Assembly (NCBI GenBank): GCA_017961115.1
Contig: JAGCXX010000186.1
Location: forward strand, 1-46,190
DNA: 46,190 bases
From: Prevotella sp.
Lineage (GTDB): Bacteria > Bacteroidota > Bacteroidia > Bacteroidales > Bacteroidaceae
Direction of reading: 5' to 3'
This document shows, piece after piece, positions 11,469 through 27,345 of the stretch (within the stretch, counting starts at the first letter, position 1; every line of letters begins with the position of its first letter). The notes beneath the pieces are model-generated. The model did no database searches. It was not told the origin of the DNA and saw nothing but the letters and a program-made list of their open reading frames with translations. The position numbers and the translations under genes are program-made.

Positions 11469-11519
11469 CAAAATTACAAGATAACGCGTGCGATATGAAA
11501 AAAGCAAGCGAATGTATAA
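11469..11519 (-). promoter_or_regulatory. Promoter of the GH31/repeat-protein operon with proximal TTATACA element
   Basis: On the minus strand TAATTTTG (11476-11469) matches the TAnnTTTG -7 box about 25 bp upstream of the ATG at 11443. TTATACA (11519-11513) lies exactly 36 bp further upstream, the same spacing as before SusC and GH76. No convincing -33 TTTG is present, which fits an activator-dependent promoter. A short inverted repeat (TGCAATT/AATTGCA, 11449-11470) overlaps the box. Confidence 0.7.
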
Positions 11520-11537
11520 TGAATATTAGTATAAAAA

Positions 11538-11572
11538 TAGTCGAAATGGTTGAAAATCAACTATTTCGACTA
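11538..11572 (-). terminator. Long hairpin between regulator and GH31 operon, probable regulator terminator
   Basis: A 10-bp perfect arm (TAGTCGAAAT at 538-547 with its complement at 563-572) continues after one mismatch into a 5-bp inner stem (GTTGA/TCAAC) with an AAA loop. In the minus direction it is followed by TTTTTATAC. It lies 48 bp past the regulator stop. The stem is AT-rich and sits between the two operator copies, so a regulatory role is also possible. Confidence 0.55.
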
Positions 11573-11588
11573 CCAATAGGTTTGTGTT

Positions 11589-11605
11589 TGTATAATGGAA
11601 ATATT
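11589..11605 (-). promoter_or_regulatory. Distal operator copy upstream of the GH31 operon
   Basis: On the minus strand this reads AATATTTCCATTATACA. It starts 76 bp upstream of the proximal TTATACA. Matching copies lie at 21144-21160 and 27121-27137. Confidence 0.6.
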
Positions 11606-11619
11606 CCTTTATCTCACCC

Positions 11620-13233
11620 CTAAATCTCCATAATCAGCTTCTCGAACTGTTCATTTTCGGCCGTGGACCTGTTTTTTATCCTTGTCTTATAGGTGTTGAC
11701 CGTATGAACTGAATAATTAAGGAATTTGGCTATGCGCTCACTGTCGGTTATACCGAGTCTGATCAATGCAAAGATGCGCATCTCAGAAGTCAGGGAATGT
11801 TCGTTTGGCGGCATCTTCCTGTCTTTCTCCTCGAAGAGCAAATTGAACCGTTCCACGAAGTCGGGGAAAATTTTGAGGAAAGTCTGGTCGAATGCCTCGT
11901 ACATGTTTTCCCTCTCCGCATTGAGGGTTGACAATTTCATCATCGACCTCAGGTCGTCGTATTGTCTTGCCACGATTTTCCGGTCAATCATGAGATACAA
12001 TTTCTCGAGTTTTGCGATAAACTCCGCATTGGTATAGAAGGAGCGGCCTATATAAGCGTTTTTGATTTTGTCGTCCTCTTTCAGTTGCTGGTTGGCATGT
12101 TTCAACTGCTCGAGCTGAGAGGCGATGGTCTCCCTTGCCTCGGTGAGTTTTCTGTTCTTTTTCCTGTTGAACCAATATCCATATAGGATGACAGCCGAGA
12201 GAATGACAAAGAGAGAACTTGCCGCGATGAGCCAATTTCTCTGGCTCGACACCGCCTCATACCTGTCACGCTCGATAATGGGAAGAATCTCGCCTATCTC
12301 TATTTTCCTCAGTCTGCTGTTGTAGAACTGCACATCCTCAAGGGCCTGATGGACATATAAGCTGGCTCTCTCGTGATATCCCTTGTTGTATATCATTCTC
12401 GAGAGGTGATAGAGGGCGGTGATTTCCCTTGTGGCGGTCTCGTTGTCGTAAATGGCAGATTGGGCAAAATATTCTATGGCTTTCTCCTCATTGTCGAGAT
12501 AGATATACGCCCAAGCCATCTCTGCGGTGGTCATAGCCTTCATGTGCAGGTCGGTATCATTAAGTTCCAGGACCTTTTCGAAAGACTCAAGCGCCTGCTG
12601 ATACTGATGGTCTCTCATCAGCCTGGAGCCGTTATACGACCACCACTTGGCTGAGTTGGGCGTCGTGACCTGCATCAGGGAGTCGAGATAGGCATTGCTC
12701 TGTGTGATGTATTTGGTGTAGAACGGTTCTTCACGAACATAATCGGCAAGTGACCGCCATAACTGACTGTAATGCTCATAGTAATCATTGAGATGATTCC
12801 CGCTCACCTTACTGCGGTCGATTGAATTGAGGACCTCATGTGCCTCTGTCAGTATACCTGCGGAGATAAGGGTAAAAGCCACAGCGTTTGACGCCTCTAC
12901 AATGCGCTCGTCATTCTTGTTGAGCAGCGCGACATCAAGGCATTCTTTGGCATAGTGGTGTGCAGAATCGTAACAATAGCTTTTATACTCATTATAGAGA
13001 CCATAAAGCAGGTCATAGTATCTGTCATTGTTTTCTATGTTGGGCTGTTGCTTGATTTTGGTGAGTTCGCTTTTCAACGTGTCTATTCTCCCAAGGCGTT
13101 TTTGCTCATACTGATCACGCTTGGCAAGGCTTTTATCCAGTTTGTTGAGCCAATCGTTGTAGCTGCTGTCTGCGAAAACCCCTGCAGGCAATGCTGTCAA
13201 GACAACAATTATCAGGTAATAGATGGCTTTCAT
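11620..13233 (-). CDS. Membrane-anchored TPR/HTH regulator (DUF6377 type)
   Basis: 537 residues. The signal peptide is about 1-21. The sensor part (25-320) is built of TPR-like helices, such as YQQALESFEKVLELN (211-225) and NEEKAIEYFAQSAIYDN (248-264). A single membrane span lies at about 334-355 (WLIAASSLFVILSAVILYGYWF), followed by a coiled coil (360-390) and a cytoplasmic DUF6377-type domain. The C-terminus has a LuxR-like helix-turn-helix: ITDSERIAKFLNYSVHTVNTYK (495-516). These proteins sense something outside the inner membrane and bind DNA from the membrane; the ligand is usually unknown. It sits between two operons of the glycan locus and is the only regulator in view, so I infer that it controls them. 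Its own promoter lacks the shared operator. Family naming is from memory of the architecture. Confidence 0.85.
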   Translation of the reverse strand: MKAIYYLIIVVLTALPAGVFADSSYNDWLNKLDKSLAKRDQYEQKRLGRIDTLKSELTKIKQQPNIENNDRYYDLLYGLYNEYKSYCYDSAHHYAKECLDVALLNKNDERIVEASNAVAFTLISAGILTEAHEVLNSIDRSKVSGNHLNDYYEHYSQLWRSLADYVREEPFYTKYITQSNAYLDSLMQVTTPNSAKWWSYNGSRLMRDHQYQQALESFEKVLELNDTDLHMKAMTTAEMAWAYIYLDNEEKAIEYFAQSAIYDNETATREITALYHLSRMIYNKGYHERASLYVHQALEDVQFYNSRLRKIEIGEILPIIERDRYEAVSSQRNWLIAASSLFVILSAVILYGYWFNRKKNRKLTEARETIASQLEQLKHANQQLKEDDKIKNAYIGRSFYTNAEFIAKLEKLYLMIDRKIVARQYDDLRSMMKLSTLNAERENMYEAFDQTFLKIFPDFVERFNLLFEEKDRKMPPNEHSLTSEMRIFALIRLGITDSERIAKFLNYSVHTVNTYKTRIKNRSTAENEQFEKLIMEI

Positions 13234-13267
13234 ATATAATCAAATGCTCTATTCAGTTAACGAACTA

Positions 13268-13275
13268 CAAAATTA
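13268..13275 (-). promoter_or_regulatory. -7 promoter box of the regulator gene
   Basis: On the minus strand TAATTTTG matches TAnnTTTG, 34 bp upstream of the ATG at 13233. Nothing resembling TTATACA lies at the spacing seen in the operon promoters. The stretch 13276-13418 shows no gene or clear repeat. Confidence 0.55.
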
Positions 13276-13418
13276 ACAAAATAGAGAGAGAGAAAGAAAG
13301 CCACAAAGATTAATTAATAAATTTTAACAAAAGGGACAAAAGTGCCATCGGAGGCCTTTCAAACTCAAAGTCAAATATGCTGACAAAAGAATGAAAGTCC
13401 CCCGGACAAGCAAATTTT

Positions 13419-13440
13419 GCTGTTGCTATGCAGCGACAGC
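13419..13440 (-). terminator. Weak hairpin after the SusC/D operon
   Basis: The sequence GCTGTCGCTGCATAGCAACAGC (minus strand) folds as a stem with one mismatch, 8 bp past the stop of the GH43 gene at 13449. It is followed by AAAATTTG rather than a T run, so it would be a poor intrinsic terminator. It may instead protect the 3' end of the transcript. Confidence 0.3.
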
Positions 13441-13448
13441 CATATTTC

Positions 13449-14711
13449 TCAATGCCTCAGCATTTTCTCACAAAGTGAGCCTGCCGTGCCGCTAACTCTG
13501 ATGATGTATAGTCCGTTTCTAATCGACGAGGTATCGACGACAGCCATGTTTCTCCCTTCTCCGTTCATGAGCAGATGTCCTTCCCCATTATAGAGTTGCC
13601 ATGCGAAGGGGTTGTCATCGGGACTGTCTATACGGAAGTATCCTCCGTCGCACTGGTTGATGAGATACCCATTATTGCCTGTGGTTTTTTTTTCAAGCAC
13701 TCCCGTCTCATCGTTAAATATCGGTGCTTCCGACTCCGTTGAGGGTCTCATGCCCTGCACCTGCGGCCATCCATCACTACCCCATGTCACTTTGTCGAGA
13801 TAGACCACCCTACCCGCATCCACGTCATTAGCCTGATAGCCATGATAGAGCACCCATGTCTGTCCGGCATCGTCGGTGACAAACTCAGAACAATGTCCCG
13901 GTCCAAATACCTCAGGGCTTTTGTTGAGCAACGGTGAGAAATTGTCGCCGATGGCGCTCCTCCCGTTTCGGTCGACATATGGTCCGAAGAGATTCTTGGA
14001 ACGAGCCACAACAAGTCTGTATGTGCTGTTGGCACCTTCACAGCAGGAACCAGCCGACCCGATGAGATAATAATAGCCGTTGTGCTTCACAATCATGGTG
14101 GCTTCGATAAGCCCTCCAGCAATTTTCTGAGGCACCGCGCCTTCTTTTATTTCCAATCCGTCGTCGGTAAGCTGTACGCCGTAAATGTCATGAAAAGAAC
14201 CCCAAAACAGGTAATTGCCCGATTCATCGCTGATGAAGAAGGGGTCGATGCAATTCTCTATTCCCACCTCACTTGAGATAAACAACTTGTGGGCGTCGTG
14301 GAATCCCCCATTGGGCCTGTCGCTGACAGCCACACCTATACCGCACTCCCATGTCTTGCCCCATTCCGATTTGGAATAATAGAGCACGTATTGCCCATTG
14401 ATGTAGTTGATGTCAGGAGCCCAGATGCCACCTTTCGGAACGAAGTCCATAGGTCGTGTGGCATCGGTGAAGGCGGTTCCCGCATACCTCCAGGTCACCA
14501 GGTCTTTAGACCTGTAAATAGGCACATTATGCGTGTCCTCAGTAGCATAGAGGTAGAAATACCCATTGTCGGCCTTGATGACCGTGGGGTCGGGAAGGCT
14601 CCACTTGATGACCGGGTTGTGATAGACATCGCCATCATCAGCCTGTGCGCCTGATGAGACGCACAGAGCCATGACGGTTGTCAGTATAGAAACAAAAAGC
14701 TTACGTTTCAT
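13449..14711 (-). CDS. GH43 family enzyme, endo-arabinanase-like, with T9SS-like tail
   Basis: 420 residues; signal peptide 1-24 (ending GAQA). This is a five-bladed beta-propeller of GH43 with all three acidic residues in place: D41 in LPDPTVIK (general base), D156 in ENCIDPFF (pKa modulator) and E203 in IEATMIVK (general acid). The GSAGSCCEGANSTYRLVVARS stretch closely matches endo-1,5-alpha-L-arabinanases, so arabinan backbone cleavage is the first guess. An exo-acting arabinofuranosidase remains possible. The last 50 residues (LYNGEGHLLMNG...IRNGLYIIRVSG) look like a T9SS type A sorting domain, implying surface delivery. It starts 10 bp after the SusE-like gene and closes the SusC/D operon. 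Confidence 0.88.
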   Translation of the reverse strand: MKRKLFVSILTTVMALCVSSGAQADDGDVYHNPVIKWSLPDPTVIKADNGYFYLYATEDTHNVPIYRSKDLVTWRYAGTAFTDATRPMDFVPKGGIWAPDINYINGQYVLYYSKSEWGKTWECGIGVAVSDRPNGGFHDAHKLFISSEVGIENCIDPFFISDESGNYLFWGSFHDIYGVQLTDDGLEIKEGAVPQKIAGGLIEATMIVKHNGYYYLIGSAGSCCEGANSTYRLVVARSKNLFGPYVDRNGRSAIGDNFSPLLNKSPEVFGPGHCSEFVTDDAGQTWVLYHGYQANDVDAGRVVYLDKVTWGSDGWPQVQGMRPSTESEAPIFNDETGVLEKKTTGNNGYLINQCDGGYFRIDSPDDNPFAWQLYNGEGHLLMNGEGRNMAVVDTSSIRNGLYIIRVSGTAGSLCEKMLRH

Positions 14712-14721
14712 GAAAGGTCAA

Positions 14722-15852
14722 TTAATTGGCAGGTTCAAACTTAGTCCACATGTCATCTGCCAGCAGGCAGAGGGTGAACGTATACCGTCCACTGACAGTA
14801 GGCACCCATTTGAGGTCGCCACCATCGTCTTGGAACCGGTACATAAGCAGCCTGTGGTCGGACAGCGGGTCGGCATTCTCGACGGGAGCATAGAAGAACT
14901 GGTCGCCCCATCCGTTGCCGAGTCCGATTTTGAACTCACCTCCCTCAGTGAAGTCACCAGTCCAGGCATAGTAATAGGGTTCTCTTGCCGAGCCCACCAT
15001 CTCCATGCGTCCAGACGAGGTGTTGGTGTTCCATCCCACCGAGCATCCATTGCCACAAATCCAAATCAGTCCTGGAGTGGGCAGCTGCACAATGTTGAGC
15101 ACTCTGCAGTCGTTGTATTCAGAGTTGGTGTCGACGATGACGGTGCGCAGTCCTGACGATTCGTTTCTGAATTCGCGGATATTGCCCTCCACCAAATACT
15201 CCATTTGTGTTCCATCAGCCATGCCATAAGCAGGATATGGTTCGGCAGTAGTGGTGAAATGATAATTGCATGGCACCATGTTGAACGACACCTCATAGAT
15301 ACCTGTCCCAAGCTGTCTCTGCTCAAGTTTTTGCGTCGACACGCTACCGTCGTCGGTTGTGATAACCATGTATATGTTCTGCGGATATTTCTCATATCCT
15401 GTGACGACGAACTCGACGGTGGAAACCTCGGGCTTCACATATTTCGTCTCATTGTTGACATTGCTCAGCACCTGGGCAGTGACCTTCACCGGATTGCCCG
15501 GAAGAGCCCATTTGGCAACCATGGAGTTGAGTTGGTTGTGGGTCAGGGTGAGCGATGTCTGTGTCCCCACGTCTATGTAGTCAGACTTGCTGTCTTTCAT
15601 GGCTGTGGGATAGAGGCATACCTTGTATGTGACGACATCTTGGGGTGAGATGGGGCTTGTAGCAGCATCCCACGTGAATGTGACGGCATCCTGATTCTCA
15701 ATGCCTTTGTTGAGCACGATAGACTCCACCGAACTCCTGATGTGCATTTCGTCGGGATAAGACTCAAGTTTGAACAACTCAGGGTCCTCATTGCAAGATG
15801 TGACGGTCAGGGCCACACACACCATGCTGAAAATATAAGAAAAGTACTTCAT
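14722..15852 (-). CDS. SusE-like surface glycan-binding lipoprotein
   Basis: 376 residues. The signal peptide ends in the lipobox LTVTSC (Cys at about 20), followed by NEDPELFKL. The N-terminal SusE-type Ig-like domain (about 25-130) has the ..VTFTWDAATSP....VTYKVCLYP pattern. A middle domain (about 150-265) and a C-terminal domain (about 270-376: LIWICGNGCSVGWN...YYYAWTGDFTEGGEFKIG..) are of the SusE/SusF glycan-binding type, with exposed Trp and Tyr. It probably works with SusD on the outer surface to capture polysaccharide. It lies 40 bp after SusD and 10 bp before GH43, in one operon. The family is assigned by domain pattern and position; sequence conservation in this group is low. Confidence 0.82.
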   Translation of the reverse strand: MKYFSYIFSMVCVALTVTSCNEDPELFKLESYPDEMHIRSSVESIVLNKGIENQDAVTFTWDAATSPISPQDVVTYKVCLYPTAMKDSKSDYIDVGTQTSLTLTHNQLNSMVAKWALPGNPVKVTAQVLSNVNNETKYVKPEVSTVEFVVTGYEKYPQNIYMVITTDDGSVSTQKLEQRQLGTGIYEVSFNMVPCNYHFTTTAEPYPAYGMADGTQMEYLVEGNIREFRNESSGLRTVIVDTNSEYNDCRVLNIVQLPTPGLIWICGNGCSVGWNTNTSSGRMEMVGSAREPYYYAWTGDFTEGGEFKIGLGNGWGDQFFYAPVENADPLSDHRLLMYRFQDDGGDLKWVPTVSGRYTFTLCLLADDMWTKFEPAN

Positions 15853-15892
15853 ATTATTTCTGATTCTCTATAAAACAATTACACCTGCATGA

Positions 15893-17827
15893 TTATTCCT
15901 CTCCTTTTTCGATGACCCAGAAAGGAGCCTCTCTCAAGTTGGGGTTTTTCTCATATTCGTCGATGTAGATAGGCATCCAATAATACTGCCTCTTCCAAAC
16001 CCTTGTTTGATAGACCGTGCGCTTGAAGAATTCCTGCTGGGTGCGTCCCTGGAAGTTCATGCCCCAGTCGTCGCCGCACATTTCGGGCAGGTTCTCAGCA
16101 TCCTTCCATCTGCGGATGTCATACCATCTGTTGTTCTCGCAGCACAGTTCCACCCTGCGCTCTGCTCTGATGACTCTTCTTACATCCTCCTGCGTGTTCT
16201 GCACCTGAATGTATTCCTCGTCGGTGAGCGGCACCTGTGTGAATGTGTATTTCCTCACGCCAGCGCGCTCACGAATGCGGTTTACGTAGTCGAGTGCCGT
16301 CTGACGGGCACCGTTGTCGTTGTGGGCCTCGTTGATGGCCTCAGCATAGTCGAGGTAAGTGAAGGCGAGCCTGTAGGTGAATCCCTGACGGTCGGTGATG
16401 GAGCCAGTGAGATAGTTGTCGAGCACATTGAGTCCCTTTCTCACGAGGTAGCCATTCTGCGGTGCGTCATGGGGTGAGGAGGTCTGCACATTGTCACGTC
16501 CGCCGTTTAAGAAATTGTATTTTCTGTTTCCGACAGCCAACCATGAACCATGGAAGGATACTGCGTTGTAGAATCGCGGTTCCCTGTTGCAGTACATATT
16601 GTAAGTGCCTCTTGCCGTGACCTCGCCAGGAACGCCGGTGCCATACTCCCACGAGGTGATGCCGTCGCGTTTGTCGACAGTAGTGGAGAATCCTTCTTCC
16701 ACATAACCTGAGTTGGGGTCGTTGATGGGCAGTCCGTTTTGAGTGAAGAAAGCATCCACCAATCCCTGATATACACCAAGTCCGTTGCCACCGCCGTACT
16801 CACGCACTGATACAGTTCTCAGGAAAGTGTCACGGTAGCTGTTGCCCTTTGTGACAGGGAAAGTGATTTCATGATTGCCCTCACTCCATCTCTTGATATG
16901 TACGTTGTAAGTGGAGAGGAACGGATCGATGCCTCCATTGGGTCCTGGTTCAGTATAGAGAGCATATCCGGCATTCTCAGCCTCATCGATGCACAGTTTG
17001 CAAGCCTGCTCAGCCTTCACCCACTTCTGCGGGTCGTAGACAGAGTTGAAAATCTGCTCGTTCTTGTCGTTCACATAGTCAGTATACCATGGGTTGCCGT
17101 TGACCAGTGGCGAAGCTGCAAAGAGCAACATACGTGCCCTTACGGTTAGAGCCATGATGCGGTTGATGCGCCCATACTTGGCGGGGTCGTCGTAGACTGC
17201 GGGCAAAGCCATTGCAGCCTCAAGCATCTGCTTGTCGCAGTAGTCGACCACGTCGTCAAACTTCGACTGTCCCACCATGAGGTCGGAAAGTTCGAAATCG
17301 GTAGGTGCGATGTAGTCCGGGGTGAAAGGGATACCGCCATAATTCTCTGCCATCTGCCACCAGGCATAAGCACAGAGGAATTTGACCTCATTCTTCATGT
17401 TGTTGATTTCAGACTGTGGCAAGTCGTGGTCGGGCATTGCCTTCACCATGTTGTTGAAGATATAGCCATGCCTAATGTATCTTGGCATCATGTGCCAGAG
17501 ATTGCCTCCCCAGGTGGAGTTGATGGTCCACTGTCCGAGAATCTTGGGGATGACACCTCCCCAGTCCCATTGCTGCCATCTGGCTGATGGCGTGATGTCG
17601 TCGGCAAACACCTCGTAACCGTCGGCAGTGAGCGCCCACTTGTCGGGGTTGTGGATGATGTTGTAGACATAGCTCAGCCAGGAATACACCTTGTCGCGGT
17701 TTTCAAACACCATTTCGGTGGTAAGCTCTGTATCCGGCTCCTTGTCGAGATAGTCGGAGCAAGACTGCATGACAGGCAAAGTCAGGACAGCCGTCAGCGC
17801 AATTATATAAATCTTAATCTTTTTCAT
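15893..17827 (-). CDS. SusD/RagB-family outer-membrane lipoprotein
   Basis: 644 residues from the ATG at 17827 (MKKIKIYII). A start 40 codons further upstream is open but has no signal peptide and would reach to within 36 bases of the SusC stop. The lipobox PVMQSC places Cys at about residue 22, followed by SDYLDKEPDTELTTE, a hallmark of the SusD N-terminus. Helical TPR-like segments carry RARMLLFAASPLVNG, and the C-terminal part has the typical YLDYAEAINEAHND, DYVNRIRERAGV and RAERRVELCCENNRWYDIRRW. It forms the lid of the SusC transporter and binds the imported oligosaccharide. SusC lies 35 bp upstream in the same operon. Confidence 0.96.
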   Translation of the reverse strand: MKKIKIYIIALTAVLTLPVMQSCSDYLDKEPDTELTTEMVFENRDKVYSWLSYVYNIIHNPDKWALTADGYEVFADDITPSARWQQWDWGGVIPKILGQWTINSTWGGNLWHMMPRYIRHGYIFNNMVKAMPDHDLPQSEINNMKNEVKFLCAYAWWQMAENYGGIPFTPDYIAPTDFELSDLMVGQSKFDDVVDYCDKQMLEAAMALPAVYDDPAKYGRINRIMALTVRARMLLFAASPLVNGNPWYTDYVNDKNEQIFNSVYDPQKWVKAEQACKLCIDEAENAGYALYTEPGPNGGIDPFLSTYNVHIKRWSEGNHEITFPVTKGNSYRDTFLRTVSVREYGGGNGLGVYQGLVDAFFTQNGLPINDPNSGYVEEGFSTTVDKRDGITSWEYGTGVPGEVTARGTYNMYCNREPRFYNAVSFHGSWLAVGNRKYNFLNGGRDNVQTSSPHDAPQNGYLVRKGLNVLDNYLTGSITDRQGFTYRLAFTYLDYAEAINEAHNDNGARQTALDYVNRIRERAGVRKYTFTQVPLTDEEYIQVQNTQEDVRRVIRAERRVELCCENNRWYDIRRWKDAENLPEMCGDDWGMNFQGRTQQEFFKRTVYQTRVWKRQYYWMPIYIDEYEKNPNLREAPFWVIEKGEE

Positions 17828-17862
17828 AATTCCTAATAATCTGTATACTATATCATAAGCCG

Positions 17863-20800
17863 TTAAAAGTTCACATCCAGTCCGAACATCACAGACCTGT
17901 TCATCGGGTATCTCAATCCGTCGTTGGTTCCCAACTCCGGATCCCACAATTTGAATGAAGACAAGCAGAAGAGATTGTTGCCGCTGACGAAGACACGGCA
18001 GCTCTTGACGTATAGTTTCTCAAACCATGCTTTGGGGAAGGTGTATCCCACCTCGACAGTTTTGCACCTGAGGAAGCTCATGTCCTTTTTCCACCATGTG
18101 GAACGACGGTAGTTGTTGACATTTGGTCCGTAGCTCAGCCTTGGCCAGAAGGCGTATGGGTCTTGATTGCTGACCGTCCATCTGTCGTCGATATTATAGG
18201 AGTATGCGTTGCCCTCGGTTGTCGTGCCGCCACCAGGGAGGAAGTAAGGCTGTCCGCCAATGACACGGTACATGTCGCCCGAACCCTGGAAGAAGAAATT
18301 GAAGTCGATGTTTTTGTAACTGACCACGCCTCCGAAGCCATACACCATTCTTGGGTCCTCTGTGCCTCCGATATACCCTTCGTCTTCCTCGGTGATGACA
18401 CCATCATGATTGACGTCGACATATTTGATGTCGCCAGGATGCAAGGTCACCGCACCCACGCCCTCCTGCGAGGGGATGCCGGCTTTCAGCGTTCCGTCGG
18501 GGTTGAAGTCGGCTTCGACGAAGAGCCTTTCAGCGGTCAGTCCCCAGAGTTCGTTCATGGAGCGTCCTGTCTGCGACCTGTGAGTGCCCTTGAGCACCTC
18601 AGGCTCATCCCTCTCAATCACTTTGTTTTTAGCATAAGTGAAGTTGCCGTATGCCGAGGTGAACAGGTTCTTGTTCCATTGCTTGTGGAAATTGAGCGTT
18701 GCCTCAATACCGTGGTTGGTAACTTTGCCGAAGTTGGCCCATGGCGAGGTGACAAAACCGCTCTGAGTGGGAATGATGGTGCGCTGCATGAAGATATCCT
18801 TACGGTCCTCCTTGAAGAGGTCGAAGTTGATGTCAAGCATGTTCCACAGTCCGAGTTCAAAACCCAGGTTTTTCTTCGTGACGGTTTCCCATGTGAGATT
18901 CTCGACACCGATGTCACCCTCAGTAATACCCGAATAGCTGCGCTGGCCAGTGGTTCCCCAAGTGTAGCCTTCCTGGTCGGTATACAGTGTTCCGAGGTAG
19001 GCGAACCTTCTGCCACCGATGTTGTCGTCACCAGCCTGTCCGATACTTGCACGGAACTTGATTTTGTTGAACGTACTCTTCAGTTTTTCCATAAAGGGTT
19101 CCTCGCTGAGCAGCCATCCAATGGCGAAAGACGGGAAGAAACCGAATCGCTTGCCCTTGGCGAAGTTTTCAGAACCGTTGTAACCAAAGTTAAACTCTGC
19201 CACGTATCTGTTGTCGTATGTGCCAGAGAGACGTCCGGCGATACCTTGTTTTCTGAAATCCTGTATGTTGCCGTCATCATAAGCCTGCTGGTTGTACAGC
19301 AAAATGGCGTCGACATCAGTTTTTCCGAACCTGTTGTTATACATCACATCTGCCTCGAAATAGACATTGGTGTTGCCATACTCGCCATTGTTGTAACTGC
19401 CCATCGACTCGTCTCCGGTCTCAAACTGGCTATAGATGAGGTTGCCTTCCTCGTTGCGCCCGGTAGCTGGGAACACCGTGCCTGGATTGGCTGTACGTCC
19501 ACGTGAACTGCGGTTCCAACGGTCGAAACTGAAGAGCGCCTTCGCCTTAAGTCCTTTGGTAATCATCTTAAGGTCCTGCTCCACGCTAAAGAGCGTCTGC
19601 AGTTTGGAAGAAGTGATGAAGTCATAACCCTGCTGGGTGACGGTGCGCCAGGGGTTGGCCCTGTTGGAGATGACAGGAATCGCTCCGTCGCTGTACTGTG
19701 CAGGGTGAACGAACGGCAGGGTGCGGAAAGCCTCTCCGAAAGCCCCATCGGTATTACACCTCTGTTTTTTGAAGCGGTTCAGATATCCACCAATATTGAC
19801 CCTGAGCAAAGTGGTCTTGGTGACATCCATGTCGATATTGGTTCTCAGGTTGAACTGCTGGTTGTTGGTGGCATTGTCAAAAAGCAAACTCTTGTCCTGT
19901 TCCAGGATGCCGCCCTCCTTGAAATAAGATGCCACAATAGAGTAGCGGAGGAAGTCGGAACCGCCGCTGATATCAAGATTGCCACGTGTTGTGTAGGCAT
20001 AATCTTTTGTGATGGCATCCACCCAGTTGACATCAGGATAGAGGTCGGGGTCATATCCCGAACGGGTGCGGTCGATTTGCAGTTGGGTGAAGGGTTGGGC
20101 TATTCCATCCTGGGCGGCAAGTTCATTGAGCAACGACATATAGTCGGGCGCATTGAGAAATTCCGGCAGTTTGGTAGGCTCGTTGATGGAGTGCTCGAGG
20201 TGGAATCTCACCTGTGGCGCTCCTATCTTTCCCCTTTTCGTGGTGATGACGATGACACCATTGGCACCTCTCACACCATACATGGCTGATGCGGATGCAT
20301 CCTTCAGGATGGAGAACGACTCTATCTCAGCCACATCCACATTATTAAGGTCGCGTGCGACACCATCAATAAGAATAAGCGGGTTGTTGTTGCCAGAGAA
20401 GGTGGAGATACCGCGAATCCAGAAATTGGAGTCGTCGTATCCCGGTTCGCCCGACCTCTGGATACCGATGACACCGCTCAACTTACCTGCGAGGTTGTTG
20501 GACAGGGTACGTGTGGTACCAAATTTCAGTTCCGAGGGGTTGATGGTCTCAATAGAGCCGATGATGGATGCTTTTTTCTGGCTGCTGTAACCAGTGACCA
20601 CCACTTCGGTGAACTCATTGGCCTCTTCCTCGAGCATCACATTCAAGAGTTTTGCGCCGTTTACCTTGACCTGGGTCGTCTTGAATCCCACATATGAGAA
20701 CTCAAGCGTGGCATTGCTCTGTGCCGGCACATCAATTTTGAAAAGGCCGTCGATATCGGTAATGGCAACGTTGTCTGTCCCGACTGAGGTCACTGTCACA

Positions 20801-20988
20801 CCAATAAGCGGTTGTTTCTCCTGGTCGGTGACGAGACCCGTCACCTGACTCATTTTCACATTCTGTTGAACCTGGGCAACAGCCTTTGTCAAAAACGGCT
20901 CAGCCACCAGCAACGAGATGGTGCAGACCAAAGTCGCACCCACCGGCAGCCATGAGCGGCAAAATTTCAATAATAGTTTTTTCATCAT
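17863..20988 (-). CDS. SusC/RagA-family TonB-dependent outer-membrane transporter
   Basis: 1041 residues from the ATG at 20988 (MMKKLLLKF); an in-frame start 21 codons upstream would overlap the promoter. The signal peptide ends near KAVAQ. The carboxypeptidase-like domain (about 50-125: VTGLVTDQEKQPLIGVTV...) precedes the plug (about 130-250), with EVVVTGYSSQKK, IRGISTFSGNNNPLILIDGV and SILKDASASAMYGVRGANGVIVITTKRG, all typical of SusC. The beta-barrel fills the rest and ends in NRSVMFGLDVNF with a terminal Phe. With SusD it imports oligosaccharides using TonB energy. It is first in its operon, with a promoter at 21022-21029 and a leader of about 27 nt. No N-terminal anti-sigma-interacting (STN) extension is seen. 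Confidence 0.96.
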   Translation of the reverse strand: MMKKLLLKFCRSWLPVGATLVCTISLLVAEPFLTKAVAQVQQNVKMSQVTGLVTDQEKQPLIGVTVTSVGTDNVAITDIDGLFKIDVPAQSNATLEFSYVGFKTTQVKVNGAKLLNVMLEEEANEFTEVVVTGYSSQKKASIIGSIETINPSELKFGTTRTLSNNLAGKLSGVIGIQRSGEPGYDDSNFWIRGISTFSGNNNPLILIDGVARDLNNVDVAEIESFSILKDASASAMYGVRGANGVIVITTKRGKIGAPQVRFHLEHSINEPTKLPEFLNAPDYMSLLNELAAQDGIAQPFTQLQIDRTRSGYDPDLYPDVNWVDAITKDYAYTTRGNLDISGGSDFLRYSIVASYFKEGGILEQDKSLLFDNATNNQQFNLRTNIDMDVTKTTLLRVNIGGYLNRFKKQRCNTDGAFGEAFRTLPFVHPAQYSDGAIPVISNRANPWRTVTQQGYDFITSSKLQTLFSVEQDLKMITKGLKAKALFSFDRWNRSSRGRTANPGTVFPATGRNEEGNLIYSQFETGDESMGSYNNGEYGNTNVYFEADVMYNNRFGKTDVDAILLYNQQAYDDGNIQDFRKQGIAGRLSGTYDNRYVAEFNFGYNGSENFAKGKRFGFFPSFAIGWLLSEEPFMEKLKSTFNKIKFRASIGQAGDDNIGGRRFAYLGTLYTDQEGYTWGTTGQRSYSGITEGDIGVENLTWETVTKKNLGFELGLWNMLDINFDLFKEDRKDIFMQRTIIPTQSGFVTSPWANFGKVTNHGIEATLNFHKQWNKNLFTSAYGNFTYAKNKVIERDEPEVLKGTHRSQTGRSMNELWGLTAERLFVEADFNPDGTLKAGIPSQEGVGAVTLHPGDIKYVDVNHDGVITEEDEGYIGGTEDPRMVYGFGGVVSYKNIDFNFFFQGSGDMYRVIGGQPYFLPGGGTTTEGNAYSYNIDDRWTVSNQDPYAFWPRLSYGPNVNNYRRSTWWKKDMSFLRCKTVEVGYTFPKAWFEKLYVKSCRVFVSGNNLFCLSSFKLWDPELGTNDGLRYPMNRSVMFGLDVNF

Positions 20989-21021
20989 ATCAATTAAGTT
21001 AGTATTTCTTCGATTTTTTTG

Positions 21022-21072
21022 CAAAGTTAACCCAACCGCACGCACATACATAATTGAATGGTGTTTGTATAA
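21022..21072 (-). promoter_or_regulatory. Promoter of the SusC/D operon with proximal TTATACA element
   Basis: On the minus strand TAACTTTG (21029-21022) matches TAnnTTTG, 34 bp upstream of the SusC start. TTATACA (21072-21066) lies 36 bp further upstream, preceded by AATATTCGAC. The spacing is the same as at 11469-11519 and 27001-27051. Confidence 0.7.
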
Positions 21073-21129
21073 GTCGAATATTAAGTGTTATAACATTAAA
21101 TAACTGATTATCAGCGACAAAACAAAAAA

Positions 21130-21166
21130 GCACCCCATATTCGTGTATAACGGAAATATAGGGTGC
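21130..21166 (-). terminator. Rho-independent terminator of the GH76/GH43/glycosidase unit
   Basis: GCACCCcATATT (21130-21141) pairs with AATATaGGGTGC (21155-21166) apart from one mismatch. In the minus direction the hairpin is followed by TTTTTTGTTTTGT. It starts about 10 bp past the stop at 21176. Confidence 0.8.
21144..21160 (-). promoter_or_regulatory. Distal operator copy upstream of SusC
   Basis: On the minus strand this reads TATATTTCCGTTATACA. It starts 78 bp upstream of the proximal TTATACA and lies within the loop and one arm of the terminator at 21130-21166. Confidence 0.55.
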
Positions 21167-21175
21167 CTTTGGCAT

Positions 21176-23191
21176 TTATTGAAGGAAATCGACTGTTCGA
21201 CGTGGCGAATACAGTTCCCACAAAGATGCTATTGTCCATCCTGGAGCAAAGATATCGTTATAGAAACCCTTCCCGTTTTTGCCATAGTCCCAATGGGTGT
21301 GTTGCACCACCTCTGGATTGAATCCCGGGACACCGATGCCGCACAGCCTATTTTCTGTGGGCAGCAATTGGCAAAGCGAGGAACTGATAACATCGGAGAT
21401 ACTTTGGAATCGTTTTTCTTCTGTCACCTCAGAGAGCCACCGTACTATATGGTTTAGTTCAAACACGAAGACATCGATGTGGTTGTTTTCTACCGACACG
21501 TTGCTCCATCCTCGGCTTTTGAAACCGAGGTCGCCCAACATCTGTCCCTGTGCGAAGGGGACGTCCCACAGATAATACCATGACAGAGCGAAATAGGCTG
21601 CTTTCCGGCAAAGGTCTATGTAGTGGCTTCTCTCCTTGTTTTTTGTCACCATGGCGAGATAGTAGGTCGCCGTAACGGCACTTATCGCAGCCTCCTTATC
21701 CTCGCAGTTGGCATCAAGAGTCGATGAGAAGTAGTCGCTTTGGGATATGATGTTCTTTTCCAGATAGTCGACCGTGCGCTTGGCTGCTTTCAGGTAATCT
21801 TTGTTTTTAAAGAACTTATAACCCATCACAAGTGTTGAGGTGGCACTGGGTGTGGACCCACCCGATGCATCCACCTCGGAGAAGTTGTCACGGTATTTTC
21901 TCGGGAAGTGTCCATCCTCATCCTGCAGACGCAGCATCGCGTCGAGCAGCGTCTTCATTCTCTCTTCCCATTCCTTATGCACACGGGCGTGCCTGCGCTC
22001 ATAATTGAGGTAGTGAAGTACGGCATACACAGCCTCCGATTGCTCGCGGATGGAATGCACGATATCCTTGTCTTCGGGAATGCCTCCGGCTATGTGCATG
22101 TCCTCCTTGAAGAAGCCGTTGGCGGTGAAGCCATGTCTCAACCAGCTGTCGAAAATGTCCTGACCGATTCTCACCAAAGTGCCATCTCCTGTCATCTCCC
22201 CATACTCAAGAGCATTGAAAGCATTGAGGAGTACCCTACCGCAGAAACCCAACTGTACATGGTCGACGGGTTTGCAGTCATCACATCTTATGCTGATTCC
22301 AGAGTGGTATTTGAGCGGATACTTGTCGACATAAGCCACCCTGAAATAGTTGGAGAGTTGCTTTTTCACCTCATCGGGAGAATACAACGGTTGAAGAGGC
22401 TGCGGTTTGAGCCTGTCATAACAATAGCACCAAGTGTCGGCGACAAACTGTCCGTAGTCTGACGTGTTGCCTTCATGCAAGAACCATTTCAGTGTGATTT
22501 GCTCGTTTTTCTCCAACTTGGCAAAAGCACACACTGGAGGAGTGAGGGTAAGTTTGCGGATATATCTCTTAGGCGTTTCTACAAAGGGATATCCGAAAGT
22601 GAGTTTGGCAATGCCCTCCTCGTTGTCAAATCCTAGGAAGCCCACCGATGATTTTCCGCCCAGTATCACCTCACCTTCCTGATGGGTGAGCAGAGCGTCT
22701 GCAAGTTGCTTATCCAACATCCTCATCACAGTGAGTGTGTTGCCCGTCTTCCCGTCATACACACCCGTGAGCGGTGAGTACAACCTGTCCTCTCTGAAAT
22801 TCCAACTGACAGCGGTGTGGAAAGAGGGAGCCTCCTTAGGAGAACGCAGGTTCTTGTGGTACCAGAATCCGGGCAGATAGAAATCGCAATCGTCTGTATG
22901 GAAACCTGTGTTTGCTGATATGCTTATATTGAAATAGGTCTGCTCCTTTGCCTCAATGGTGATGCTGAGCATCTTGTCTTCTCCCACGTTCTCTGTTCTC
23001 TTGTTGATGGTCACGGGCAAGTTGTTGTCAGCCACAAGTCTCCCATCCCTTTCGGCAAGGCGATGGACGACAGCAGCATTGCCAGGCTTTTTCAGCGCGA
23101 TTTTGTAACTCAGCTCAACGGCATTTGCACTCATGGCGACCGTTGAGAGCAAAAGCCCGCATAGGCATAATCTCAGATTATTCATAATCAT
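21176..23191 (-). CDS. Putative secreted glycosidase of unassigned family (beta-sandwich plus helical barrel)
   Basis: 671 residues; signal peptide about 1-24 (ending MSANA). The N-terminal part (25-265) is beta-rich with FHTDDCDFYLPGFWYHKNLRSP. The C-terminal part (about 280-660) is helical, with repeated hairpin-like segments such as QSEAVYAVLHYLNYERR, LLDAMLRLQDEDGHFPRKY, SATSTLVMGYKFFKNKDYLKAAKRTVDYLEKN and KAAYFALSWYYLWDVPFAQG. This layout is that of six-hairpin (alpha/alpha)6 glycosidases or lyases. I do not recognise the family. Candidate active-site acids include D64-D65 in the HTDDCD loop and the acids of SIRCDDCKPVD, but this is not established. It is third in its unit, 42 bp after the GH43 lipoprotein gene and right before a terminator, so a role in the same glycan pathway is likely. 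Confidence 0.6.
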   Translation of the reverse strand: MIMNNLRLCLCGLLLSTVAMSANAVELSYKIALKKPGNAAVVHRLAERDGRLVADNNLPVTINKRTENVGEDKMLSITIEAKEQTYFNISISANTGFHTDDCDFYLPGFWYHKNLRSPKEAPSFHTAVSWNFREDRLYSPLTGVYDGKTGNTLTVMRMLDKQLADALLTHQEGEVILGGKSSVGFLGFDNEEGIAKLTFGYPFVETPKRYIRKLTLTPPVCAFAKLEKNEQITLKWFLHEGNTSDYGQFVADTWCYCYDRLKPQPLQPLYSPDEVKKQLSNYFRVAYVDKYPLKYHSGISIRCDDCKPVDHVQLGFCGRVLLNAFNALEYGEMTGDGTLVRIGQDIFDSWLRHGFTANGFFKEDMHIAGGIPEDKDIVHSIREQSEAVYAVLHYLNYERRHARVHKEWEERMKTLLDAMLRLQDEDGHFPRKYRDNFSEVDASGGSTPSATSTLVMGYKFFKNKDYLKAAKRTVDYLEKNIISQSDYFSSTLDANCEDKEAAISAVTATYYLAMVTKNKERSHYIDLCRKAAYFALSWYYLWDVPFAQGQMLGDLGFKSRGWSNVSVENNHIDVFVFELNHIVRWLSEVTEEKRFQSISDVISSSLCQLLPTENRLCGIGVPGFNPEVVQHTHWDYGKNGKGFYNDIFAPGWTIASLWELYSPRRTVDFLQ

Positions 23192-23233
23192 TGTTTCAAG
23201 TTTTGCATTTGCTCAACCTTTCAAGTTGAATAG

Positions 23234-24214
23234 TTATTTTAATTTTGTACGTTTCACTCCTTCATTGGTCATTTTCACTGGTTTGATGAATCCGTTGGAG
23301 TCGAACTCCAGACGGTCAATACACGTCATCCTCGAATTAGCGGCAGTTTCGGTAAGGGGTCTGCGGTGATATACGATATACCACTCGTCTTCTCCCCTAC
23401 CCTTGATGACCGAGTGATGACCTGCCCCAGTCGCTATTTGGGCATCCTGCTCAAGTATTTTCCCTATCCTGCGGAAAGGTCCCAATGGCGAATCGCTGAT
23501 GGCATAACTGACACAGTAGTTGGGCTGCCCCCAACCACCTTCACTCCACATGAAATAATACCTGCCGTTGCGTTTCAGCATGAAAGGACCCTCCACATAA
23601 TGCTCTGGGGTGACTTCCTTGTAGACTTCACCATCATCAAAAGGTATGATTCCGAGCAAGTCGGCAGACATTCTCACCACATTGCAGTGTCCCCATCCGC
23701 CATAATACATATAATACTCACCGTCATCATCTTTAAAGACATACTGGTCGATGGGCTGAGCGCCATTCACAATTTGCTGTATCAAGGGTTTGCCGAGCGC
23801 GTCCTTGTATGGTCCTTGGGGTTTCTTGCTCACAGCCACACCGATTCCCCCGACTTCACCTTCGTGGACATCGTTGGCGGAGAAGAAAAGATAATACATA
23901 CCGTCTTTCTCCACCAAGGCAGGTGCCCACATTGCCCTTCTAGCCCACTTCACGTTGTCGCTCGTGAGTACATGAGGATGCTTTTTCCACTTCACCAAAT
24001 CATTTGACGAGAAAGCGTCGAAGAACAGCTGTTTATCATACTCGGCCGAGAAAGTAGGAAACACCCAGCACTTGCCTTTGACCACCACAGCCTCCGGATC
24101 GGCATACCATCCCTCAAAAATGGGATTGCCACTTGTTGGAACCTGACCGTTGCAGCCTGTTCCATATATCATCATCAATGCCAGCAACAGATACTGGCGA
24201 TAATTATCAGTCAT
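23234..24214 (-). CDS. GH43 family lipoprotein (exo-acting furanosidase-like)
   Basis: 326 residues. The signal peptide ends in YGTGC (Cys21), which suggests lipidation. This is a five-bladed propeller with the GH43 acids D39 in EGWYADPEAVV, D156 in QPIDQYVFKDDDG and E208 in YVEGPFMLKRNG. The sequence GAGHHSVI.....WYIVYHRRP gives the conserved His of the metal or water site. The WYADPE form and the short length are typical of alpha-L-arabinofuranosidase or galactan-type GH43 subgroups; the exact sugar is not readable. The ATG overlaps the last 8 nt of the GH76 gene, so translation is probably coupled. A TATCTTTG match lies 5 bp upstream, inside the GH76 coding end, too close to the start to be a normal promoter. 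Confidence 0.85.
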   Translation of the reverse strand: MTDNYRQYLLLALMMIYGTGCNGQVPTSGNPIFEGWYADPEAVVVKGKCWVFPTFSAEYDKQLFFDAFSSNDLVKWKKHPHVLTSDNVKWARRAMWAPALVEKDGMYYLFFSANDVHEGEVGGIGVAVSKKPQGPYKDALGKPLIQQIVNGAQPIDQYVFKDDDGEYYMYYGGWGHCNVVRMSADLLGIIPFDDGEVYKEVTPEHYVEGPFMLKRNGRYYFMWSEGGWGQPNYCVSYAISDSPLGPFRRIGKILEQDAQIATGAGHHSVIKGRGEDEWYIVYHRRPLTETAANSRMTCIDRLEFDSNGFIKPVKMTNEGVKRTKLK

Positions 24215-26966
24215 GGTGCAAAGATACGAACTTTTGATTGTTTTTTATATATATGCCTCGTTGAGATGGTCTGTTTACTGCTATGCCCGCCAGGGTATAA
24301 CAAGATGTGCCGTCAGATGGTTGGGCAAGAGTCGCCCTCACGGCCGATTCTTCTGCTGGAGAAAGAGAGATTTTGTCAACACAAGGAGCCCATCCCGAAT
24401 CACTTCCCAACACAATGACGTTGATCCCTGTCTTCAAGGTCACCTTCACTGTCTTTTTCTGCGCCGTGCCGGCCTTCCATCCTCCTGTACTTTCAAAGAC
24501 GGTGTTCACTTTGGTGCCATTATTTGCCCTGACATACATCTGCCTTGTCTGATTGGTGAAATAAGTGACCTCAAGATTATAATTCCCGCCATATGCGGCA
24601 TCATATCTGAACAACGCCAGGTTGTTGTTTCCGTTGCCGATATAATTGAGGTATCTACCACCCGAGGCTTCGTCGTCATCAACAATGGCTACCTGCCCGG
24701 ATGTCGAGGCATACTCCGCCTCTAAGTTGCCATCGACAAGTCCAAGCGACGACACCTCCACCCTATCAATCTCTGGCAGTGATGGCTCTGCGCTAAAAAG
24801 CATCGTGTTGTAACCCTTTCTCAGCGTCACGAAGAGCGGTCTCCTCACCATGGCATCTCCTGATGACTCGAATACCGACACCACCGCATCCGCATCATTC
24901 ACGGCAAGATAGACATTCCGCCGTTCTCCATACGAATAAAACACATTGGCAAGATAGTGACCATCCTGCTCTGCCTCATAATGGAATGTGATGTTGTCAT
25001 TTCCCACCTTCTCTGCATCAGCAGCCCTCAGCACCACCTTTTCGGCATCGCCCGCGACAATCTTGGTGAAAGCGATTCTGTCTATGTTGGGAGCAGTTCC
25101 ATTGGGATTGGTGAGGATACAGAAACACTGTCCCTCCTTCAGGCTGACCTTCAGGGTGGCCTTTCCCTCATCGGCTATTCTATCCCATGTGGAGACACTC
25201 GGACAAGTAAGCGTATAATTGCTGTTACCTATGGTTACTTGCAAATTGCGCGACTGATACGACAAGTAATACACGTCCATCAGATAATCGCCGTCTGCCG
25301 GAATCTGGCAATTGAACCTCAACATGCCGTTGCCATGGTCGAGTCCGCTTACATATTGTCCTCCTGACTGGTCATCGGTTTTGACCACAGCCGAACCCGT
25401 GGTCTGGGCATTCTCGGCCTCATATCCGAAAGATGCACCGAGGCGATTTTGAAGGGTGACAGCGCATGCTGCAGTGAGCGCTGTTGTGGCACCGAAAGCA
25501 GAACCTGGACGAGAGTAGTCTACATTTCCAAATCTCATGTCCTCTGCCGCCTTGGTAAGCCAGGCCGAATGGCCGAAACCTTTGGAGTTGATGTTGTTGT
25601 AGGCGTGGAAAGCATTGGCTGTTATCCATGCCTGGTACTCAGCGTCTTCAAACTGCATGGCATACATGCCCGCATATCTCATGAGTATGCCCTTAAACCC
25701 CTGGAAGTCGCCGTCGGCATTCTGACACACCCTTACCAATCCGTTGCTGTTGCACAGGGCAGATTTGGCATATGCGATGATTCTCGTCGCATCGGTTTTA
25801 TATTGCTCGTCTCCATAATGGCGGTAAAGCAGCAAAGCCCCGCCGAGCATCGTACCCTGATTGTAGGTGGAGGCCCATGTGTTGCGGTCTTTCAATGAAA
25901 GGTCATTGGGATTGAATGTGACACTGTCGTAAACCTTTCCAGTATAAGGCTCGAAAAGATATTTGCGTTGGTTGGCATAGAGTTCCCTTGCTTTCTCAAA
26001 ATATGATTCATCACCCGTCCCGATGGCGATGTAGCATGCCGCCACCTCCGCGGGACCATTGACGCAAGAGTTGGCACCATTCCTGTCACCAGAACTCTCG
26101 GCCCATCTCAGCAGTCCGACATATCCTAAGTATGCTCTTTCCCAAATAAGGTCGAAATTCCGTTTGGCATCATTGAGGTAACTCATTTTTCCAGTTATGA
26201 GATAAGCCCTTGCCGCCGCAATAATCATCCACATCACATCATCATTGAAATCATATCCAAACCAGTCGTATCCACCTACTGTGGTACCACCGTCCCAGCG
26301 TGTTCCCACATGATAACGCATATAATCATAGCAAGCCTCGAAGATGTTAAGGTATTTCCTGTCGCCCGTGGCCTCGTAGAAGTCGAGAACAGCCTCGAGT
26401 GTCTCCGCCTCATTCCATCCTCCGTTGTTGAAAGTTCGGTATCCGTTTCCTTTGTCCTGAACATATTGTGTGAGGAAACCATCGAGCATCCTTTGCCTAG
26501 CTTTTTCATCGAAAACCAATTGTGGCTCCACCTCCTCGAAATGCCACATCATTTGCAATCCCAGCTTAGGCTGCTCGCCGTCCACGGTGCTCGTAACCCC
26601 GAGATACTGGTCATGCAAAAGGCAATAGTCATTGTTGGCCTCATCCACAGGTTCGAAAATCCATCCCGCCCCATTGCCTGTCTGCACCAATGCGCCGTTG
26701 CTGATGTCCAAATACATCCCTGTGTACACGTTTTTGAGCAACATCTTACCCTCGCCGTCAGCAATGGCACTCCACTGTTGGGCTGGAACATGGGTTTCAG
26801 TCCACACCACCACAGGTGTCTGTGCATCTTTTGAGGCATTTTTCACGAACAGCGAGGCCTGGGCATTCCCGTCAGGAACTATACGGTAAGTTTTTCCGTC
26901 TGTCACTTCGGCTCTCGCCTCATTAACCATAGTCAATGCCATAAGGCATGCAAGCAACAATCTCAT
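24207..26966 (-). CDS. GH76-type endo-alpha-1,6-mannanase with lectin and CBM6-like modules and T9SS tail
   Basis: 919 residues; signal peptide 1-19 (ARAE). Residues 22-150 look like a ricin-type lectin fold (YRIVPDGNAQASLFVKN..., WSAIADGEGKMLLKNVYTGMYLDI). The catalytic (alpha/alpha)6 domain spans about 155-520, with the paired aspartates of GH76 at D242-D243 in YDFNDDVMWMIIAAARAYLITG. Other family marks are NNGGWNEAETLEAVLDFYEATGD and YNQGTMLGGALLLYR. After it come two complete CBM6/35-like beta-sandwiches (about 525-650 and 755-880, opening YEAENAQTTGSA and LEAEYASTSGQVA) and a shorter one between them. The last 35 residues (CYTLAGIAVNRP..RGIYIKNNQKFVSL) are a T9SS type A sorting domain. 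GH76 enzymes cut alpha-1,6-mannan chains, as in fungal or mycobacterial mannans. It is first in unit A, with a promoter at 27001-27008. Confidence 0.88.
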   Translation of the reverse strand: MRLLLACLMALTMVNEARAEVTDGKTYRIVPDGNAQASLFVKNASKDAQTPVVVWTETHVPAQQWSAIADGEGKMLLKNVYTGMYLDISNGALVQTGNGAGWIFEPVDEANNDYCLLHDQYLGVTSTVDGEQPKLGLQMMWHFEEVEPQLVFDEKARQRMLDGFLTQYVQDKGNGYRTFNNGGWNEAETLEAVLDFYEATGDRKYLNIFEACYDYMRYHVGTRWDGGTTVGGYDWFGYDFNDDVMWMIIAAARAYLITGKMSYLNDAKRNFDLIWERAYLGYVGLLRWAESSGDRNGANSCVNGPAEVAACYIAIGTGDESYFEKARELYANQRKYLFEPYTGKVYDSVTFNPNDLSLKDRNTWASTYNQGTMLGGALLLYRHYGDEQYKTDATRIIAYAKSALCNSNGLVRVCQNADGDFQGFKGILMRYAGMYAMQFEDAEYQAWITANAFHAYNNINSKGFGHSAWLTKAAEDMRFGNVDYSRPGSAFGATTALTAACAVTLQNRLGASFGYEAENAQTTGSAVVKTDDQSGGQYVSGLDHGNGMLRFNCQIPADGDYLMDVYYLSYQSRNLQVTIGNSNYTLTCPSVSTWDRIADEGKATLKVSLKEGQCFCILTNPNGTAPNIDRIAFTKIVAGDAEKVVLRAADAEKVGNDNITFHYEAEQDGHYLANVFYSYGERRNVYLAVNDADAVVSVFESSGDAMVRRPLFVTLRKGYNTMLFSAEPSLPEIDRVEVSSLGLVDGNLEAEYASTSGQVAIVDDDEASGGRYLNYIGNGNNNLALFRYDAAYGGNYNLEVTYFTNQTRQMYVRANNGTKVNTVFESTGGWKAGTAQKKTVKVTLKTGINVIVLGSDSGWAPCVDKISLSPAEESAVRATLAQPSDGTSCYTLAGIAVNRPSQRGIYIKNNQKFVSLHHD

Positions 26967-27000
26967 CGGTTTTCTTTATTTTGTTATACTATTTATGCTG

Positions 27001-27051
27001 CGAAGATACTACTAATCCCACATAATATGACAATAAAAAGCAAATGTATAA
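27001..27051 (-). promoter_or_regulatory. Promoter of the GH76 unit with proximal TTATACA element
   Basis: On the minus strand TATCTTCG (27008-27001) is one base off TAnnTTTG and lies 35 bp upstream of the GH76 start. TTATACA (27051-27045) lies 36 bp further upstream, as in the other two promoters. Confidence 0.65.
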
Positions 27052-27111
27052 TAGTTTGAAAGTCGTTGAAAAAATAGTATATTGACTGTCAATATGTTAG
27101 AGATGTGAGGA

Positions 27112-27345
27112 TTCATGGCTTGTATAAAGGAAATATTCGATGCCATTTGCCTCCAACAACAATTATTTATCTCTACTGGCTTCGTCCATAACCATCCGAG
27201 CGGAAACTTCCATCCGAGCAAGTTTGACGATACTTTAACCCAGACCCTCAAAAAGGCTTGTGACCTCATGCGTATCCACTTCCTCGACCATGTGATTGTA
27301 TGTGATGGGTTTTTTTATTCGTATCACGACCGAGGAAGGCTGTAA
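27112..27345 (+). pseudogene. RadC C-terminal remnant (JAMM domain tail)
   Basis: From the ATG at 27115 the frame encodes about 76 residues ending at a normal stop. It contains FVHNHPSGNFHPSKFDDTLT, which includes the full RadC/JAMM metal motif H-x-H-x7-S-x2-D. It then runs DLMRIHFLDHVIVCDGFFYSYHDRGRL, the standard RadC ending. Intact RadC has about 150 more residues on its N-terminal side, including the helix-hairpin-helix region and the conserved Glu. These are absent: an in-frame stop lies 9 bp before the ATG. I read this as a truncated, decaying gene, perhaps left by rearrangement. Confidence 0.8.
27121..27137 (-). promoter_or_regulatory. Distal operator copy upstream of GH76
   Basis: On the minus strand this reads AATATTTCCTTTATACA. 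It starts 76 bp upstream of the proximal TTATACA and overlaps the first codons of the RadC remnant. Confidence 0.5.

Follow-up and report, generated by a model that had tools for sequence, protein, structure and literature searches.

The question raised by this locus concerns three polysaccharide utilization locus (PUL) operons, named here after GH31, SusC and GH76, which lie on the minus strand of a 46,190-nucleotide stretch of Prevotella sp. (contig JAGCXX010000186.1, positions 1–46,190, of assembly GCA_017961115.1, 3.84 Mb and 86% complete; hereafter, the window). Each operon is preceded by two copies of one short sequence almost eighty base pairs apart, and it has to be asked what reads these sites and how the farther one could act on transcription. 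The answer proposed here is that the promoters carry three-part operators of a SusR-type regulator, in which two SusR boxes flank a middle element that is probably bound by a DNA-bending protein resembling integration host factor (IHF) or HU, a reading to which we assign a probability of roughly 0.6.

The two boxes were located by pattern search and are described by two lengths: d, the distance from distal to proximal box, and the gap, the number of nucleotides between the proximal box and the −7 box. In all three promoters the proximal box, TTATACA, stands exactly 36 nt before the −7 box, the longer distal copy lies a further 76 (GH31), 78 (SusC) and 76 bp (GH76) upstream, and the six boxes share one orientation, just as a sequence-only reading of this DNA had described; its distal sites were also right, while its ranges for them were one base too long. 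On the minus strand, the GH31 operator consists of the distal box ATATTTCCATTATACA (11589–11604), the middle element TTGATTTTCAA (11550–11560, with a left arm GAA at 11565–11567), the proximal box (11513–11519) and the −7 box TAATTTTG (11469–11476). The corresponding parts of the SusC operator are ATATTTCCGTTATACA (21144–21159), CTGATAATCAG (21104–21114, with TTT in place of the left arm and no AA), the proximal box at 21066–21072 and TAACTTTG (21022–21029), and those of the GH76 operator are ATATTTCCTTTATACA (27121–27136), TTGACAGTCAA (27082–27092, with a left arm TAA at 27097–27099), the proximal box at 27045–27051 and an imperfect −7 box, TATCTTCG (27001–27008). The distal copies read ATATTTCC, then A, G or T, then TTATACA, and their common pattern is ATATTTCCnTTATACA.

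This arrangement is rare in the genome. The pattern ATATTTCCNTTATACA has three matches in the whole assembly, all of them within the window, and its reversed control has none. A looser pattern (gaps of 60–80 and 26–46 nt) finds three full arrangements, namely the GH31 and SusC operators of the window and a single additional one on contig C89, which precedes an 809-aa open reading frame (ORF) confirmed as GH31 and is a fourth copy, outside the window; the GH76 operator is missed owing to its TTCG. Base composition predicts 0.005 such arrangements per genome over all 31 × 31 gap pairs, and 3 × 10⁻⁵ with d of 75–79 and a gap of 36. A relative (G009) has four such operators, which share a contig and precede ORFs of 1056, 920, 811 and 754 aa, and a regulon of four operons is therefore likely.

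The geometry is conserved in orthologous loci of relatives, and the operator accompanies its regulator. Among 100 genomes of the genus, 13 contain a match to the window SusR at E ≤ 1e-60, and the loose pattern, with 31 gap lengths allowed per side, occurs in 12, that is, in 10 of these 13 and in 2 of the other 87 (Fisher p 1e-9). The three SusR-bearing genomes without the exact pattern (G002, G003 and G024) hold the most distant SusR relatives of the 13 (33–44% identity). One of the two matches among the 87 is an apparent tandem array (G026); in the other (G070, assembly 84% complete) the best SusR match is 32% identical, and the susR gene may lie in an assembly gap. Of the 23 matches listed in this survey, 22 span 126–130 nt, and the remaining one is the tandem array. 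When loci fetched as relatives were scanned with gaps of 28–44 and d of 60–91 allowed, 92 distinct box pairs were obtained, some of them near-copies; the gap is 36 in 87, and among these d is 66 (2), 75 (14), 76 (18), 77 (35), 78 (12), 79 (5) or 80 (1), so that 84 of the 87 fall at 75–79 with a peak at 77. A count of repeated 7-mers before TAnnTTTG, which presupposes no motif, gave 35 counts at offset 43 and d 75–79 in 80 related loci (mean 0.05 per cell), 31 of them being TTATACA. In 80 wider Bacteroidaceae SusR loci, all nine cells with at least four counts lie at d 67 or 77 and offset 43–47, with other words; both sets of counts are inflated by overlapping words. The fixed 36-nt register is a property of the TTATACA class, and in the other two box classes described below the offsets vary over a few bases. 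The 85 TTATACA-class operators used were reduced to 52 by dereplication; at the −33 position these keep only a T-rich stretch, with no TTG, in agreement with the weak −33 elements reported earlier.

The spacer between the boxes contains a third element, absent from the sequence-only reading: TAA-N4-YTGATWATCAR, midway between the boxes. In the information profile of the 52 operators, with positions counted from the distal box start, it appears as AA at +29/+30 and as YTGATWATCAR at +35 to +45. The wider comparison comprises three box classes, TTATACA, (C/T)ACTT (24 operators) and TTTATA (20 operators), of which the last two were gathered by pattern and contain some chance pairs. Across the three, the most frequent start of the core YTGATWATCAR lies 34, 35 or 37 bp from that of the distal box, and a core matching at least 9 of 11 positions lies within 2 bp of the most frequent place of its class in 47/52 (TTATACA), 12/24 (ACTT) and 11/20 (TTTATA) operators, compared with shuffle means of 0.41, 0.24 and 0.21. 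Aligned on the core, 84 of the 96 operators (12 with a core below 8/11 were dropped) give the consensus TAA-N4-YTGATWATCAR-N4-TT. In the two classes that use both spacings, the distance from core to distal box is the same at d of about 67 and about 77 (34/34 and 37/37), and the missing helical turn must therefore lie between the core and the proximal box.

The element is also characteristic of these promoters. Found anywhere in the spacer at 12 or more of 14 positions, the longer element occurs in 40/52, 9/24 and 6/20 operators (TTATACA, ACTT and TTTATA), and in only 7 of 370 other promoter-like sites of the same loci (6 of 370 on the reverse strand), an excess with Fisher p of 6e-38, 2e-8 and 1e-5; at 10/14 the figures are 51/52, 22/24 and 15/20 against 66/370. 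At least two of the seven control promoters resemble, by eye, imperfect ACTT-class operators. In a converse test the middle element was found without the boxes, and the −7 box was predicted 71–79 or 81–89 nt from it, which is 18 of 150 distances: 62 of 90 and 35 of 84 counts fell at the predicted distances, where 10.8 and 10.1 were expected, and in the 20 held-out loci 10 of 32 did so, against an expectation of 3.8. The palindrome was considered as a promoter element of the genome at large and rejected. The assembly has 25 matches to YTGATNATCAR, against 2 for the reversed control. Outside the window there are 24, of which 20 were inspected; 15 of these lie inside ORFs of 119–554 aa, and none of the 20 had TAnnTTTG at 71–79 or 81–89 nt from the core start. 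One of them (L279) has a GTAA arm and no TAnnTTTG within 260 nt downstream.

The earlier suggestion that the boxes form a regulon operator read by a DUF6377 protein is well supported by the co-occurrence described above, by the family of the regulator and by the covariation of helix and box. The regulator gene (11620–13233, minus strand) encodes 537 aa, and its product scores 500 bits on the NCBIfam SusR model NF058541 (cut-off 480), which places it in the SusR family, and 250 bits on Pfam DUF6377, in addition to TPR repeats; one membrane segment and a C-terminal helix-turn-helix (HTH) domain were recognized by eye. Box sequence tracks the recognition helix of the SusR encoded in the same locus, as judged from a table with up to two helices per locus, from which 14 TTATACA operators without a readable helix were dropped and in which the 24 ACTT and 20 TTTATA operators gave 16 and 19 rows. 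The helix SVHT[VI]NTYKT accompanies 38 TTATACA operators and 1 TTTATA operator, and helices of the YNYR type accompany none, 16 and 18 rows of the TTATACA, ACTT and TTTATA classes, respectively. Within the latter type, SVTTIYNYRT pairs with CACTACTTTT (6), SVNTIYNYRA with TCCACTTA (4, plus 1 TTTATA) and SLAT[VI]Y[NS]YRS with TTTATA (17, plus 1 ACTT). The sites, their geometry, their conservation, and their co-occurrence and covariation with SusR are all directly observed. A SusR with the helix SVYTIKTYKT is encoded near a promoter with the repeats GGTATACA/GGTGTACA at d 76 in loci L115 and L219, possibly a further box class. As a candidate for an additional SusR box, the inverted copy TGTATAA (at most one mismatch) has 17 matches 18–19 bp before the proximal box in the 52 TTATACA-class operators; over the whole operator stretch it is present in 21/52 rows, and the reversed word in 11/52.

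The simplest reader of the middle element would be a factor common to all classes, because the boxes change with the regulator and the middle element does not. A protein of the IHF/HU type fits both the sequence and the place of the element. The consensus of E. coli IHF, which bends DNA sharply, is WATCAAnnnnTTR, or TAAnnnnTTGATW on the other strand (PMC10380432), and the left part of the middle-element consensus from the 84 operators is this same sequence, with identical spacing between TAA and YTGATW; the three copies in the window are imperfect. The element lies downstream of an activator site and upstream of the promoter, as the IHF site does in sigma-54 promoters assisted by IHF. On this basis we infer binding by SusR and by an IHF/HU-like protein, bending and activation as follows. 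SusR is anchored in the membrane, its sensor lying in the periplasm and its HTH domain in the cytoplasm, and would activate transcription when a glycan is sensed, as has been published for the Bacteroides protein. It would read two boxes of one orientation separated by about 77 bp: a strong one, AATATTTCCnTTATACA, at the distal position and a weaker one, TTATACA, at the proximal position, a fixed 36 nt ahead of the −7 box. A DNABII-class (IHF/HU-like) protein would probably occupy TAA-N4-YTGATWATCAR midway, and the bend would return the distally bound SusR to the proximal box and to RNA polymerase.

Several observations weigh against this reading. The middle element is palindromic, and the E. 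coli consensus has no counterpart to its mirrored right half; HU has been described as lacking sequence specificity (PMC10380432). The sole small DNABII protein of the genome scores alike on the IHF-alpha, IHF-beta and HU models, below the cut-off in every case, and a second DNABII match lies within a 432-aa ORF. The window elements depart from the consensus (no AA arm in SusC, GAA in GH31 and TTGAC in GH76), and only about half of the operators in the two non-TTATACA classes reach a core of 9/11. The only independent set in the converse test, the 20 held-out loci, was positive but modest (p 0.003, or 9/31 and p 0.009 when an element counted twice is taken once), and these loci include just three operators of the three classes, with a core of at least 9/11 in one and at least 8/11 in all three. 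The pairing of the NTYKT helix with TTATACA partly reflects common descent; the loci of this class were collected by their relationship to the window SusR. Finally, d varies in steps of one base between 75 and 79 among TTATACA-class operators, which does not fit strict helical phasing.

Some of these points favor a different reader. It is possible, although we consider it rather unlikely, that the middle element is contacted by SusR itself, through a different surface of DUF6377 or an additional protomer, or by some other palindrome-binding regulator, with no IHF/HU-type bending. The core is an inverted repeat of the kind that homodimeric regulators prefer, it keeps its distance to the distal and not to the proximal box in the two classes with both spacings, such elements are rare in the other promoters of these loci, and neither IHF subunit, alpha or beta, was identified in the 86% complete assembly, where no model reaches its cut-off. 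However, the element stays constant while helix and boxes change over three classes, which makes the HTH domain of SusR an improbable reader, and it includes the TAA-N4 arm at IHF spacing. As for other regulators, the Bacteroides Crp (BT4338) site, wwwTATGTTnTAnAACATAwww, differs from the middle consensus when the two are compared by eye and was discarded.

We regard it as very improbable that these are plain two-box SusR operators in which the palindrome is a by-product of the terminators of upstream genes. This idea draws on the GH31 palindrome, which caps a strong terminator-like hairpin downstream of susR (11530–11580, minus strand; fold z −6.3), a stretch that may serve as both terminator and operator, and on the 12 of 52 TTATACA-class operators whose stem extends beyond the core. 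Yet the core is kept in 36 of the 40 operators without such an extension, only the short palindrome folds in the GH76 operator (z −1.6), and a terminator would not hold a fixed phase to box and promoter. The SusC hairpin lies elsewhere: the distal box falls within the loop and the upper part of the stem of a terminator-like hairpin (21120–21172, minus strand; z −5.6) that follows the 21176–23191 gene. Chance or low-complexity repeats in AT-rich intergenic DNA can practically be dismissed; 7-mers are short and one genome, G026, matches through its apparent tandem array, but the expectation per genome given above is very low and the geometry is conserved in orthologous loci.

The two-box part of this three-part operator is already known in kind, a link that the sequence-only reading did not make. 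The accessible sections of the work on Bacteroides by Ravcheev et al. (2013; PMC3878776) describe SusR motifs as direct repeats with 67 or 77 bp between centers, propose one dimer spanning both sites (the sequence-only reading had supposed separated dimers), call the spacer non-conserved and report that motif similarity correlates with regulator similarity. The operators of SusR, SusR2, SusR3 and SusR4 described there share with the present ones a SusR-family regulator, a two-site direct repeat and a place before PUL operons, and a locus with a GH66 dextranase (L186) carries CACTACTT boxes at d 77, like the SusR2/dextran regulon. They differ in that the box is here TTATACA and d is 75–79, near but not identical to 67/77, and those sections mention neither the −7 register nor the middle element. 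The core frequencies given above, wider Bacteroidaceae box types included, show a conserved spacer, which, judging from these alignments, amends the published description and does not exclude membership of the family. Operators of hybrid two-component systems (HTCS) in Bacteroides are also direct repeats before PUL operons, but the same sections give them an average spacing of 21 bp and AraC-like regulators, and the spacing of 75–79 bp rules them out here. A direct-repeat motif is likewise reported for ComA of Bacillus subtilis, an HTH activator, in the part of PMC4797271 available; judging from its sequence, SusR may resemble the LuxR-type HTH group to which ComA belongs. In the open literature, to which the searches extended and of which some articles were accessible in part, no description was found of the fixed 36-nt register or the middle element, no paper with DUF6377, none linking SusR direct repeats to Prevotella and none linking SusR promoters to integration host factor in Bacteroides. 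The middle element and the tracking of the recognition helix by the box go further than the description of 2013.

The remaining features of the locus were assigned by domain search. All on the minus strand, the GH31 gene (9188–11443) and the GH76 gene (24207–26966) are the first genes after their operators, and SusC (TIGR04056; 17863–21051) is accompanied by a SusD-like gene (15893–17947). Three long ORFs, 406–3273 (955 aa), 5437–8436 (999 aa) and 21176–23191 (671 aa), match nothing in Pfam or NCBIfam at E ≤ 0.001. Besides a fragment, the assembly contains two more full-length SusR-like genes, of which one falls short of the cut-off. A second SusR gene (L045, contig C71) has an operator of its own, with its promoter at 3078 (minus strand); it is built from a different box, CTACTTTT, at d 77 and shares the middle element. 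At the paralog locus on contig C297 no convincing box pair was found.

A broader proposal, which we advance tentatively and at slightly less than even odds, is that SusR promoters across the Bacteroidaceae are DNA-bending switches. A common homodimeric IHF/HU-like protein on the palindrome between the boxes would fold the operator, and the membrane-anchored one-component activator would hold both boxes and touch RNA polymerase; the promoter arm would change by about one helical turn (67/77 bp) in two box classes, and regulator and box would evolve in step into regulons insulated from one another. The first starch utilization system to be described is regulated by SusR, and what is at stake is how this protein activates from sites six or seven helical turns apart. 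A third element common to three box classes makes the mechanism testable by mutation in Bacteroides, and the table of boxes and recognition helices offers a starting point for predicting the operons that each SusR controls.

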